Shown here piece after piece: positions 57,299 through 64,000 of a stretch of 64,000 nt of DNA (within the stretch, counting starts at the first letter, position 1; each line of letters starts with the position of its first letter). The translations under genes and the position numbers were made by a program. The notes under the pieces are model-generated. The model saw only the letters and a list, made by a program, of their open reading frames with translations. It searched no databases and was not told the origin of the DNA. Origin of the DNA: Psychrobacter sp. BI730 (GTDB lineage Bacteria; Pseudomonadota; Gammaproteobacteria; Pseudomonadales; Moraxellaceae); assembly GCF_013414195.1 (NCBI RefSeq), contig NZ_JAATTV010000005.1, positions 1 to 64,000 on the forward strand, read 5' to 3'.

Positions 57299-58312
57299 CT
57301 AATCATTAAAAATAAATATAGGCTTAAAATTATTATCAATTTTTTCGCATATTGTAACTTGGTAATCATCTGTTAATTGGTCTGCCAACCACTTTAAGTG
57401 GCTTGGTTTAGTCTCATAGGTGATAAGACTTAAGACCTCTTTTCCTACTTTTGTAACCTTATAGCATAAAAGTTTAACATTCTCATTCAAGCTTTTGCTT
57501 GAAATCATAAGAGCCTTTTCACTGACTAAGATAAATGAAAGAAAACCTGCCTCATCAACTTTTCTTATATTAAGAAGCTCTTGAACTACTCCTAAAGTTG
57601 AAACACCAGAGATTATGCCAATTTCTTCCAAAAGATTTAATTCACCTCTCGTCATTTTTGATGCTTCAAGGAAGTTATCATTTGATGCTACAAAACTTCC
57701 TTCTGTGACACGTCCATATATAATTCCCAGCTCTGAATAATAAGGTGCAAGCTTCTCTACAAGTAAAGCGTCTGATTTAGACATAGTCTTTAGAAACTCT
57801 AATAACCTTAAGGAATAACGTCCTGGTTCTAGAAATTCTTGAGCTAATATGTTACCCCATAGTGACTGAACTTCTTCATCAGTGACTTTACTAGCATTAT
57901 CGCGCCATGTATTTAGCCAATCCTGACTTACTTCTTCCTTAGGTAAATCTGAAACATCTTCTATCAGGCGTCCGTTAGCATGATTAATTGCTTTTACTAC
58001 ATTTATTTCTGCACGGATTAATCTTTTGATATCATGACTAAGAACTGTATCCCTTACTGATGTTCCTGACTCGTTTTCTACTGAAGCTGTCGATTCATAG
58101 CCAATTAGATTGATTTCATTATTATTAAGTTCAGCTATCTCTTTTTCACCTTCAGAGATAGCAATCCTGCTAATTTTATCCAACTCTATTGCGCCAAGAG
58201 TAAGCTTTTTATTTTTCCAAACTGTATAGTAAGGATAGATTAATCCACCAATACCCTTCTCTATTAAAGTCTCCCACATTTTAAGTAGCAACACTTCACC
58301 AGGCATTTGCAT
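57299..58312 (-). CDS. DUF2806-like protein
   Basis: 337 aa. The beginning MQMPGEVLLLKMWETLIEKGIGGLIYPYY and the later WLNTWRDNASKVTDEEVQSLWGNILAQE resemble the DUF2806 family of unknown function, often found in variable genome regions. It is predicted helical and cytoplasmic, with no catalytic motif I can name. It is markedly AT-rich compared with thrC and rsmB on either side, suggesting acquisition. AAGGA precedes the ATG. A defence role has been suggested for similar lone genes but is not shown by this sequence. Confidence 0.6.
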   Translation of the reverse strand: MQMPGEVLLLKMWETLIEKGIGGLIYPYYTVWKNKKLTLGAIELDKISRIAISEGEKEIAELNNNEINLIGYESTASVENESGTSVRDTVLSHDIKRLIRAEINVVKAINHANGRLIEDVSDLPKEEVSQDWLNTWRDNASKVTDEEVQSLWGNILAQEFLEPGRYSLRLLEFLKTMSKSDALLVEKLAPYYSELGIIYGRVTEGSFVASNDNFLEASKMTRGELNLLEEIGIISGVSTLGVVQELLNIRKVDEAGFLSFILVSEKALMISSKSLNENVKLLCYKVTKVGKEVLSLITYETKPSHLKWLADQLTDDYQVTICEKIDNNFKPIFIFND

Positions 58313-60012: not shown

Positions 60013-61089
60013 TTATTTTGTTTCTGACGTAAATTGATCGCCGTCATTTAATTGGTTGCCATGGCAAACTTGTTCAGCAGTCATCGGCTTACCACCCGCA
60101 AACTGCAAGTGAGTAATGGCTAAAGTAGTGGCCGACGACTCGGTATCATTATCCTTACCACAAGCGACTAAGATCGCTTTTCGTCCGACACTGATAACCG
60201 TTCCAGCAGGTTTATTCGTTTGCTGCGATGTATTTACAGGTAAGCTAGCCAACACTTTGACGCGCTGCCCTGCTAGGAAAGTATAAGCACCCGGCCATGG
60301 TGTCAGCCCACGAATTTGGCGTTCAATAGCGGCAGCAGGCTGCGACCAATCAACTTCGCCTTCGGTTTTGACCAGCTTTTCAGCGTAGTTGGCTTGACTA
60401 TCATTTTGAGCAATAGCTTGAGCTTGATAAGCAGCTAAATCTTTTAACACCGTACTAATGGCTGTCGCACCAAGTGCAGCCATCTTATCATGTAGGCTAG
60501 CAGCGGTATCATCAGAGGCAATACTTTCGCTAACTTTATAAAGCATGTCACCTGTATCAAGACCTTTGTCCATCTGCATAATGGTAATTCCTGTCTCATC
60601 GTCTCCGGCCAAGAGTGCACGATGGATAGGTGCAGCACCGCGCCAGCGTGGCAACAGTGAAGCGTGAATATTCAAGCAACCATGAGTAGGCGTCTCTAAT
60701 ACACCGATAGGTAGGATCAACCCGTAAGCGGCGACAATCATCACATCTGGTTGATAGGTGCGCAGAGTTTGCCTAGCAGCTAGCCCTTCTGCACTAGACT
60801 TTTTAAAAGTGACTGGCTGCTCTACAGCGATATCATGTGTCAATGCAACTTCTTTTACCGCAGAGGCTGACAGCTTTTGACCACGACCTGCTTTACGATC
60901 AGGCTGGGTGTAAACAGCAACTATCTCTATATTCAGCGCTTCTTGCTGCTTAATTAACGACTCAAGGCTGATAGCAGCAAATTCAGGTGTACCCGCAAAT
61001 ACTACCCTTAATCGGTTAATAGTTGGGTTATCATGGTCAGTAAGCGAGTTAGATGTATCAAAGGTAGGAGCAGTTGTAGTCATAATCAT
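60013..61089 (-). CDS. fmt: Methionyl-tRNA formyltransferase
   Basis: 358-aa enzyme that formylates initiator Met-tRNA. The VVFAGTPEFAA start of the Rossmann fold, the formyl-binding HASLLPRWRGAAPI and the C-terminal OB domain (about 240-350) are present. It has about 25 extra polar residues at the N-terminus and a longer tail than E. coli (315 aa). The start (61089 or 61083) is uncertain because no strong ribosome-binding site is seen. def, the usual neighbour, is not present. Confidence 0.95.
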   Translation of the reverse strand: MIMTTTAPTFDTSNSLTDHDNPTINRLRVVFAGTPEFAAISLESLIKQQEALNIEIVAVYTQPDRKAGRGQKLSASAVKEVALTHDIAVEQPVTFKKSSAEGLAARQTLRTYQPDVMIVAAYGLILPIGVLETPTHGCLNIHASLLPRWRGAAPIHRALLAGDDETGITIMQMDKGLDTGDMLYKVSESIASDDTAASLHDKMAALGATAISTVLKDLAAYQAQAIAQNDSQANYAEKLVKTEGEVDWSQPAAAIERQIRGLTPWPGAYTFLAGQRVKVLASLPVNTSQQTNKPAGTVISVGRKAILVACGKDNDTESSATTLAITHLQFAGGKPMTAEQVCHGNQLNDGDQFTSETK

Positions 61090-61410: not shown

Positions 61411-64000
61411 ATGCAACAGTTTCAGTCCTTACAGCGCTTATTGATTTTTTATGCCTTGTCTCTCACGGTTATGTTACTGCTGTACTATGTCACACTGTTT
61501 GATGGGATGAAAAAACATAGTGAGCAACATAGCATAGATACTTTTTATGCCCTACAGCACAGTATTATTGAGCATGCAGCGCCTGTAGATAGTGAAATAA
61601 AAAGAATCTTAGAGCAACCTACTTTTGATCACCTTAGTTATCAGCTGATTTTGATGATGCCTTCTGGGCAGACCTATATTCATCATAATACTCGTCCTAA
61701 TGAATCTGCTTTTTCTACCGTTGCTTTCCCTACCATCGGTACATCAGCTTCTAGCAGCAGCGACCATAGCTCTTATACCATCAATAGCAATGACCTAACA
61801 GGAATCATTAATCTAAAAAGCGGACATCAGATTTATATCGTATTACGCCACGAACCTTTTGTTGTTGACTGGATATCTTACCGTTATTGGCTCCCTTTGA
61901 TGGTCGCCATCGTACTATTTTTCATGGCATTGCTCTATATGCTCAATCGTCGAACCAACTGGGAGCAATTACTGGTTTATACCGATAATTTGAGTAGCCG
62001 CGCAAAAGAATCTTATACGCCGCCGCCGTTTCTACAAAAGAAATCTACTACCGAGTTCATGCTGTTAGGTCATGCGTTAAGTCGCGTCAGCTACCAACTA
62101 CATAATGACTATCGGCGTATAAAAACATTGACTCATCGGTTAGAACGTCTGGTCGATCAGGCACCTTTACCGATGTTGATGAGTATACGACATGGTCAAA
62201 TTAGTTTCTATAATCAACGCTTTGAACAGGTATTTGCACCTTCTGTACATAAAGAAATTAGTTATAGACTTACTGACTTTATTCAAGGTAAAGATGAAGC
62301 GACACAAGTCCTACTACAAAATATGTCCAGCTTACGCATTACCCGCACACTCATCGTTTATGGCTTAGAAAACCAGCAAGCCTATCAACTTCACGTAACA
62401 CCATGGTTTGGTGAACATGGCCAAGTTCATGGCTTTACTGTGATTTTTAATAACGTCGACGATATTCTCCAAAAATCTGAGCAATTACAGCTGCACAACC
62501 AACAACTGCAATTACAAATTGATGAATCAAACGAAGCCCAGGCATTTATAGGTCGTAAGTTAAGGTTACCACTAGAGAAGATAATTGATTCGTTGGAACC
62601 CATCGACCCTTCAACATTGACAGCTCAAGGCAAAAAAACTCTAAATACATTGATTACAACCAGTCAAAGCATGTTGACTGTGCTCAATGAGACGCTAGCA
62701 ACAGAGGAAGTTGAAGTCAGAAAAACACGTCTAAGTATAGAAACGGTTGATATTTATAAGGTAAGCAAAGAGGTTAGCAATTTAGTCACAAAAGAAATAA
62801 GACAACAAGGGTTAGAATTGATCTATTTCTTTGCGCCAGACTGTCCTCGTTACATCGAAACTGATTACATTCGACTGCACCATATCCTATTAAACATGTT
62901 GAAAAACGCTATTAGCTTTACAACATCAGGCTATGTCGCGCTCACTGTTGATCGTGTGCCTGAAGATAAAGTAACGCGAATAAGTAATCAGCATTTAACT
63001 CCTAACAATGACACGACAATGCCTACGCAGACATCTTATTGGATTCGCTTTAGCGTAAAAGACACTGGAGCAACTATTACTCCTGAGAGAAAAAATCAAT
63101 TAGTCAATATCTTGAATCAAAGCAATCATAACTTAGTTGAAGACAGTAATATTGGCTTGAGTGATGCCAATAGCTTTGCTCAGTTACTCGGCGGTTTTAT
63201 CGAACTCAGTAATACGGTAGATAAAGAGACGGTATTTAGCCTCTACCTTCCTTATCCTCATACCACTTATCAATCGGTATATCATCGTTGTTCGCAGCTG
63301 CCCCATATTCACCTTATCGCTATCATCAATCAGCCTCTAGTTGCTAAACATTTACAACGTTTGTGCGAGTACTTAACGATATCCGTGACTATCTACAGCA
63401 CTTTAGATAGAGCCACTGTACAGCAGCTAAAAAATAAATTAAAACAAGATGAGCAAACCATCATTCCTGTCTTGTTATTAGATTATGAGTATAGCCAATC
63501 CATCACCTTACCAGTTCATGCGAGCAACAAGTATAACGAACAACAAGAAGCGTTAAACGACCTAGTCGCTACGCCTTCACTACCGAAGATATTGCTTAGC
63601 ATGAAACTTGAAAGGCATATCCCTTCTACTTTACTAGGCCAATATGATGGATTTTTGACCAAACCCTTGGACGCAAGTTTACTAATTTCTGAACTGCTAC
63701 GTTTAACCTTGTTTGCAAGGAAAACGCTAAACATACTGGTCAAACATCAATATGACAGCAGTCTATCTTTTGTAGAAGATATACCTAAGAAAGAAATCTT
63801 ATCTCCACTGATTTTGGTCGTAGAAGACAGCCCTACTAACCAAAAGATAGCCTGTAAAATGTTAAGTAAACTTGGTTATCGTAGCATCGTCGCAGAAGAT
63901 GGACAGCAAGCACTTGAGAAACTCAAAAGCCAACGTGAAGAGATTTCTCTGATTTTGATGGACTGCCGAATGCCCGTTATGGATGGCTTACAAGCCACAC
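61411..64000 (+). CDS. Degenerate hybrid sensor histidine kinase/response regulator (partial)
   Basis: The open frame runs off the window after 863 codons. Order: membrane helix (about 9-28), periplasmic segment with Ser-rich patch, second helix (about 158-178), PAS-like region (about 245-355), a histidine-kinase dimerisation region, an HATPase-like domain, a first receiver-like domain and a second receiver. The overall plan resembles BarA/GacS. The H-box reads GRKLRLPL (around 381-388) where the family has SHELRTPL, so the phosphorylated His is absent. The N-box (NMLKNAISF, about 495-503) remains, G1 reads DTGATI (about 551) and G2 SNIGLS (about 579). The first receiver lacks its acidic pair, and the second is canonical (VVEDSPTN; Asp851 in MDCRMPVMDG). 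Confidence 0.85.
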   Translation, partial: MQQFQSLQRLLIFYALSLTVMLLLYYVTLFDGMKKHSEQHSIDTFYALQHSIIEHAAPVDSEIKRILEQPTFDHLSYQLILMMPSGQTYIHHNTRPNESAFSTVAFPTIGTSASSSSDHSSYTINSNDLTGIINLKSGHQIYIVLRHEPFVVDWISYRYWLPLMVAIVLFFMALLYMLNRRTNWEQLLVYTDNLSSRAKESYTPPPFLQKKSTTEFMLLGHALSRVSYQLHNDYRRIKTLTHRLERLVDQAPLPMLMSIRHGQISFYNQRFEQVFAPSVHKEISYRLTDFIQGKDEATQVLLQNMSSLRITRTLIVYGLENQQAYQLHVTPWFGEHGQVHGFTVIFNNVDDILQKSEQLQLHNQQLQLQIDESNEAQAFIGRKLRLPLEKIIDSLEPIDPSTLTAQGKKTLNTLITTSQSMLTVLNETLATEEVEVRKTRLSIETVDIYKVSKEVSNLVTKEIRQQGLELIYFFAPDCPRYIETDYIRLHHILLNMLKNAISFTTSGYVALTVDRVPEDKVTRISNQHLTPNNDTTMPTQTSYWIRFSVKDTGATITPERKNQLVNILNQSNHNLVEDSNIGLSDANSFAQLLGGFIELSNTVDKETVFSLYLPYPHTTYQSVYHRCSQLPHIHLIAIINQPLVAKHLQRLCEYLTISVTIYSTLDRATVQQLKNKLKQDEQTIIPVLLLDYEYSQSITLPVHASNKYNEQQEALNDLVATPSLPKILLSMKLERHIPSTLLGQYDGFLTKPLDASLLISELLRLTLFARKTLNILVKHQYDSSLSFVEDIPKKEILSPLILVVEDSPTNQKIACKMLSKLGYRSIVAEDGQQALEKLKSQREEISLILMDCRMPVMDGLQAT

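Follow-up and report, generated by a model that had tools for sequence, protein, structure and literature searches.

The window, the whole stretch of 64,000 nucleotides analysed here, ends inside a gene for a hybrid sensor protein that is referred to below as the pseudokinase. With the neighbouring contig stretches joined, the complete gene extends from window position 61411 to contig base 64164 (C36:64164) and encodes 917 aa followed by a stop codon, in a histidine kinase-receiver-receiver layout that ends a few residues past the last receiver (Table 1). Pfam searches detected no Hpt domain at the C terminus and no HisKA domain even at E<=1, and none of the 14 places returned by a genome-wide HisKA search (E<=0.001) corresponds to this gene. 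The HATPase_c match (PF02518) is weak, at 42.3 bits versus 93.8 bits in the real GacS of the same genome, and the Response_reg match at residues 801-912 is strong (100.3 bits). The stretch of the first receiver (REC1) has no Pfam receiver match, and its receiver-likeness rests on the alignment. The AlphaFold2 model of the P. immobilis ortholog, which is 95-96% identical (mean pLDDT 69.7, pTM 0.41), predicts two DHp-like helices, a CA-like stretch and two receiver-like stretches, with low confidence in the lid region (residues 570-581). Elsewhere in the window, a 337-aa frame (57299-58312) lies between what we take to be thrC-like and rsmB-like genes.

Table 1. Features of the pseudokinase locus, in window coordinates.
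Feature	Position	Strand	Basis or remark
fmt	60013..61089	-	conserved upstream neighbour, species marker
Pseudokinase hybrid sensor gene	61411..64000	+	first 863 codons in the window; continues to contig base 64164
TM helix 1, residues ~10-30	61438..61500	+	hydrophobic stretch read directly; helix in ortholog model
Predicted periplasmic sensor, residues ~31-155	61501..61875	+	inferred from position between two hydrophobic helices; strands in model
TM helix 2, residues ~158-178	61882..61944	+	hydrophobic stretch; helix in model
PAS-like domain, residues ~241-349	62131..62457	+	PAS_8 18.8 and PAS 16.9 bits, both under the Pfam cut-off
Coil and DHp-like helices without HisKA signature	62458..62730	+	no HisKA match; two long model helices
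Arg382, phospho-histidine position	62554..62556	+	alignment
Degenerate catalytic (HATPase_c-like) domain, residues ~441-620	62731..63270	+	PF02518, 42.3 bits; purifying selection, w 0.28 [0.16-0.50]
N-box Asn499, kept	62905..62907	+	alignment
G1 box DTGATIT, third G1 position Gly to Thr	63061..63081	+	alignment
G2 box EDSNIGL, glycines 578 and 580 lost	63139..63159	+	alignment
Pseudo-receiver REC1, no acidic pair, Asp691 and Lys751 kept	63298..63696	+	alignment; receiver-like strand/helix order in model
Canonical receiver REC2, start	63799..64000	+	Response_reg 100.3 bits; continues to contig base ~64158
Asp851, REC2 phospho-acceptor	63961..63963	+	D in 94/94 rows reaching the position, of 97

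Motifs were compared in an alignment of 113 rows, of which the 97 with flanking-gene markers were used: 91 from the genus Psychrobacter (89 full length, the broken G051 and the cut G067) and six from another genus. A further 14 locus rows, all from other genera and devoid of flanking markers, were dropped; His, ExxT and the three G2 glycines are present in all 14. The alignment confirms the central claim of an earlier sequence-only reading, which had placed an arginine (residue 382) at the H-box histidine position. The H-box reads G381-R382-K383-L384-R385-L386-P387-L388, with His382, E383 and T386 all lost, and the HExxT phosphatase motif is absent (R382, K383, L386). In the ATP site, Asn499 is kept and four positions depart from GacS (555 Thr, 565 Val, 578 Asp, 580 Asn). 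The damage reported for the G1 and G2 boxes is likewise borne out: the G1 box (D551-T-G-A-T-I) carries threonine at its third position and the G2 box (E-D-S-N-I-G-L) has lost glycines 578 and 580 and retained 582, with the F-box Phe565 missing as well. The N-box and the last receiver (REC2) are intact, as had been described, and REC2 has all canonical receiver residues (E805, D806, D851, T879, K901). The description of the first receiver stands in part. Its acidic pair is absent and Asp691 is kept, but reading the absence as a step in the decay of the gene was rejected because kinase-intact rows lack the pair too: at columns 640-641, no genus row out of 91 carries the two acidic residues together. 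In two kinase-intact rows (L069, L098) an acidic pair sits one column further on.

With no histidine, no ExxT pair and a broken lid, neither autophosphorylation nor HExxT phosphatase activity would be expected from what is known of the family; the protein probably cannot autophosphorylate and is probably not an HExxT transmitter phosphatase. Residual or cryptic kinase activity on another residue, such as His362, is highly unlikely. His362 is fixed in the 16 rows of the window clade and the N-box is kept, but this residue is Q or K in 66/91 genus rows and lies in the coil, 20 residues ahead of the H-box, and the protein lacks two of its three G2 glycines along with the F-box Phe. A search for another conserved histidine in the H-box helix, the finding that would have spoken against the sequence-only reading, yielded none across the 91 genus rows. 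Candidates for a true H-box elsewhere were rejected, His362 being variable and H336 and H340 (present in 85/91 and 82/91 rows) falling inside the PAS-like domain. Arg382 itself is fixed in 16/16 window-clade rows.

The suggestion that the gene might be GacS/BarA was discarded. The protein has no Hpt, and a separate, intact GacS/BarA-type kinase of 1209 aa (P0002; L010:2654-6283), with all kinase boxes, an ISHELRTPL H-box and an HPt, is encoded on another contig. Against the NCBIfam BarA model the pseudokinase scores 146.4 bits for a cut-off of 890, which the GacS of the genome also fails to reach (511.7). GacS was matched in 21/21 tested genomes, including all nine without the pseudokinase gene, and is therefore not dependent on it. 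The Pfam match to the GacS receiver comes in two pieces about 50 codons apart, and an insertion seems to split this receiver before the phospho-Asp strand.

The pseudokinase gene is held by 95 of 105 genus genomes, 89 of which carry full-length frames (839 aa and more). Frames are broken in G027, G049, G051 and G075, and the copies of G067 and G086 run off the end of a contig. The 839-aa frame, that of G096, is shortened internally: it shows no recognisable match for query residues 376-589, yet REC2 is kept, as are the stand-alone HPt and the hybrid kinase discussed below. The gene is cleanly absent from nine genomes, in which fmt adjoins ribE with no remnant between, and it is reduced to fragments in G103. 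Among the 94 fetched genus stretches (G086 apart), fmt flanks the gene in 93 and ribE in 87, at least one of them being found in all 94; the six loci from a second genus of the family have fmt in 6/6 and ribE in 4/6. Given these shared flanks the rows are orthologs, and absence most likely represents loss. In two loci of another family genus (L118:5818-6255, L119:2899-3336) the last receiver is encoded by its own 145-aa frame, close to the kinase gene. In G027 (L091; C1:641353-643160) the pseudokinase gene and the HPt-less hybrid kinase are each split in two frames, which may reflect decay or sequencing error.

The genus displays a graded series of motif loss. When all motifs are taken to comprise H, ExxT, N, the three G1 positions, F565 and the three G2 glycines, with G2 loss counted by glycine columns, every kinase motif is kept in 31/97 rows, 25 of them among the 91 of the genus, and at least one is missing in 66/91 genus rows. 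Intact orthologs are exemplified by the P. coccoides and P. urativorans types. Losses over the 91 rows amount to 65 for ExxT, 63 for F565, 54 for at least one G2 glycine and 28 for His, the last figure also being the total over all 97 rows. The vacated histidine site is occupied by Arg in 20 rows, Tyr in six and Asn in one (27 replaced), and is deleted in one; among named loci (n=51), 33 have His, 15 Arg, two Tyr and one Asn. All 28 His-less rows also lack the ExxT pair and at least one G2 glycine. No row has lost His alone, and there are rows that have lost ExxT, the F-box or G2 glycines with His kept; Arg382 hence looks like a late step and not the cause. Twelve rows have lost only ExxT and the F-box, the motif state of P. 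cibarius; with H, N, G1 and G2 retained, these proteins may have remained kinases.

Parsimony counts indicate that the histidine was lost six to eight times within the genus, the fewest changes being eight on the marker tree, eight on the gene tree without the kinase core and six on the kinase-core tree without motif columns; the trees were built quickly, many of their forks are weak, and the counts might shift if species have exchanged the gene. The corresponding figures on the marker and gene trees are five and two for ExxT, and six and three for the state in which all motifs are kept. The genomes with which G067 clusters differ between the two trees. Conservation persists at other positions of the same proteins. 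In the H-box, where H, E and T are often lost, L384, R385, P387 and L388 are kept in 90, 86, 90 and 87 of 91 rows, respectively. In REC2, D806, D851, T879 and K901 are invariant and 805 is D or E in all 90 genus rows that reach them, of 91. Residue 807 of REC2 (window 63829-63831) is Ser in 63/65 degenerate rows with the residue and Asn in 28/29 intact rows; the N to S change occurs in 0/29 intact rows, and no claim is made from it, as an independent-pairs test had too few pairs.

Estimates of w (dN/dS) from 120 non-independent pairs of the 16 window-clade genomes, with codon bootstrap, are well below 1 in every domain: 0.17 [0.11-0.24] for the first TM helix and periplasmic part, 0.05 for the second TM helix and linker, 0.08 for the PAS-like domain, 0.17 [0.09-0.38] for DHp, 0.28 [0.16-0.50] for CA, 0.18 for the pseudo-receiver and 0.032 [0.013-0.058] for REC2, the lowest of all domains. 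The gene is therefore a maintained pseudokinase, under purifying selection in each of its domains. For CA, ten degenerate pairs drawn from separate places give 0.19 and ten intact ones 0.15, a small difference. The pseudogene reading was rejected on these values and on the 89 full-length genus frames, in agreement with the earlier view that the gene is not a decaying pseudogene. A slow non-functional decay in which the receiver survives by chance is very improbable for the same reasons. It would draw on the clean loss in 9/105 genomes, the G103 remnant and the four broken frames, some of which may be sequencing errors, but frames stay full length with w well below 1 although 66/91 rows are motif-depleted, and the four invariant REC2 residues never vary in the genus.

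The selection estimates bear on two further alternatives. REC2 could be the output of the protein, phosphorylated by a hybrid kinase or an HPt and then binding a target protein, with the membrane part serving only to place it. The w of REC2, the lowest of any domain, and the occurrence of a REC2-like sequence as a separate frame in loci L118 and L119 are in line with such a role, which is nevertheless improbable because purifying selection acts on the sensor and PAS-like domains as well. A weightier but still doubtful alternative is an allosteric pseudokinase, whose DHp and CA domains would pair with GacS or with the HPt-less hybrid kinase and alter its activity, REC2 acting as a sensing input and not as a sink. 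DHp and CA remain under purifying selection after motif loss, the H-box residues around the lost H, E and T are retained, and precedents are available in DivL with CckA (available text of PMC4211667) and in mechanism 3 of RetS with GacS (available text of PMC5992135). Against it, G096 has no alignable segment 376-589 and still keeps REC2, and, as regards GacS as the partner, GacS is present in 9/9 genomes without the pseudokinase gene. An apparent tightening of selection on REC2 in degenerate relative to intact rows was dropped, since many intact pairs are near saturation and L117/L118 are misaligned in REC2. Synonymous divergence within the window clade is 0.07-0.11 across DHp, CA and the pseudo-receiver (62458-63696) versus 0.38 in PAS and 0.22 in REC2, which suggests recent recombination or a sweep; the pair L055/L056 has low synonymous values in CA, pseudo-receiver and REC2.

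Candidate partners were sought among the phosphorelay proteins of the genome. A single stand-alone HPt (126 aa, contig C11) is encoded, presumably between dnaE-like and trmJ-like genes; the other Hpt matches are to GacS, a ChpA-size protein and a CheA-like protein. An HPt-less hybrid kinase (HisKA-HATPase-REC; 604 aa, contig C22) has HisKA and receiver matches and, by reading, a GAF domain and no obvious TM helix, as in a soluble protein. Neither the stand-alone HPt nor this kinase was matched in any of the nine genomes that cleanly lack the pseudokinase gene, and a Pfam Hpt search (E<=0.01) of these nine found no Hpt in a short frame. Among the other 96 genus genomes, the HPt was matched in 94 and the hybrid kinase in 96, some kinase or HPt copies being split or interrupted by a stop; the two HPt misses, G063 and G081, are assemblies 83% and 77% complete. 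Since eight of the nine gene-less genomes group together in the marker tree (SH-aLRT 80) and G005 falls elsewhere (98), the three genes were co-lost in two independent losses, an association that is a new observation. In 22 further genomes of the family, the HPt query was matched in 15/15 with a related hybrid kinase (29-47% identity) and in 2/7 others, the two exceptions being G114 and G128, the latter with a weak kinase hit. Against the proposed link, G105 and G120, which belong to the family and lack the kinase, show weak Hpt matches to frames some 115 aa long.

The co-loss pattern is not exclusive to these genes. The CheA-like Hpt protein (frames of 725-749 aa) is found in 0/9 gene-less genomes and in 6/6 other genus genomes tested, and HisKA places number 8-12 in the nine versus 9-16 in 12 other genus genomes tested, so that part of the co-loss may belong to a wider loss of signalling genes. 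No ChpA-size Hpt protein was shown in three of the nine (G039, G040, G047). Nor is the relation obligatory, since G103 keeps the HPt and the hybrid kinase with its pseudokinase gene destroyed, a pattern that suits a modulator better than an indispensable step of the relay. The CheA-like Hpt protein forms a compact cluster with a single-domain receiver and two 149-aa proteins (L225:2196-5765), a few kb from the GacS gene, and this cluster could be part of the same network. A response regulator for the stand-alone HPt was looked for in the genome and not found; presumable candidates are a GacA-like gene and an OmpR-like gene without an adjoining kinase.

The shared losses of the three genes suggest the stand-alone HPt as the partner of the pseudokinase, an argument that draws on two loss events only. 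The reading we tentatively prefer, at somewhat less than an even chance and by analogy with RetS, is that the protein would act as a sink or buffer coupled to this HPt. In this sink or buffer, two TM helices with periplasmic and PAS-like sensing parts would form a membrane-anchored sensor, the DHp/CA fold of the former kinase core would persist as a signal-responsive scaffold, and the last receiver, through Asp851, would be the only intact chemical centre. REC2 would exchange phosphoryl groups with the stand-alone HPt and so drain or buffer a relay presumably fed by the HPt-less hybrid kinase, and the sensor part might modulate the exchange; this would amount to the phosphate-sink logic of RetS moved to an HPt. 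A fuller historical version, in which, on the gene tree, a single loss of ExxT in the common ancestor of 64 sampled rows was followed by erosion of the lid and then by six to eight losses of the histidine while the receiver stayed fixed, leaving a receiver-only membrane valve for the stand-alone HPt, is rather unlikely in all its parts. More generally, the protein probably now adjusts other signalling proteins rather than starting signals, and the roles first proposed for it (scaffold, allosteric regulator or receiver for another kinase) fit the observations.

Histidine pseudokinases have been known so far from individual cases, such as RetS and DivL, and receiver sinks are known as well. What is new here is a series of decay stages across the genus, in which the receiver stays fixed and the phosphatase motif is lost too. 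One syntenic gene in about 90 genomes displays the whole path from an intact kinase, through a damaged lid with His, to Arg, Tyr, Asn or nothing, and thereby offers natural before-and-after pairs on the role of a sensor kinase once it is unable to phosphorylate; the naming of the stand-alone HPt as candidate partner makes the question testable. Searches of the Psychrobacter literature combining histidine kinase with GacS, or two-component with HPt, returned nothing about the pseudokinase gene, judging by title.

Among known systems, RetS of Pseudomonas is by analogy the closest functional precedent, and many RetS kinase-region chains appear in the Foldseek list of the ortholog model. The RetS sensor is a 7TMR domain; by contrast, the pseudokinase has no such Pfam match at E<=1, shows two hydrophobic helices only, by reading, and combines a small periplasmic region with a PAS-like domain instead. 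RetS targets GacS, whereas GacS persists where the pseudokinase gene is lost, and RetS draws phosphate from the HisKA histidine of a kinase, whereas the proposed model would use an HPt. As described in the available text of PMC5992135, RetS of P. aeruginosa has a degenerate HATPase, is unable to autophosphorylate, inhibits its partner kinase and accepts phosphoryl groups from GacS on its REC2 Asp, a combination of degenerate HATPase and intact phospho-accepting receiver that the pseudokinase shares. According to the same text, however, RetS keeps an HExxT H-box and acts as a transmitter phosphatase, whereas the H, E and T are missing from the pseudokinase.

The GacS of the genome (P0002) is a hybrid kinase in which the alignment suggests a receiver-like stretch ahead of the receiver, as in the pseudokinase, but it has all kinase motifs and an HPt. 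Full-length ShkA (6qrj) is the best match both by PDB sequence and, for the ortholog model, by Foldseek. ShkA, from Caulobacter crescentus, has a last receiver. It also has a central pseudo-receiver, as the pseudokinase does, but it is a working kinase stimulated by c-di-GMP on that pseudo-receiver, as reported in the available text of PMC7010744. DivL of Caulobacter is likewise a pseudo-histidine kinase, with Tyr in place of the phospho-His and a kinase activity dispensable in vivo (available text of PMC4211667). That text describes DivL as retaining the H, N, G1, F and G2 boxes save for the His, and as PAS domains with a histidine kinase module and no receivers; the pseudokinase, on the contrary, has lost its F and G2 boxes and has receivers. 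Lastly, LadS of P. aeruginosa is also a hybrid kinase and signals via the HPt of another protein, but, on the account in the available text of PMC4866733, it does so as a phosphate donor through its own transmitter, unlike the role proposed for the pseudokinase.
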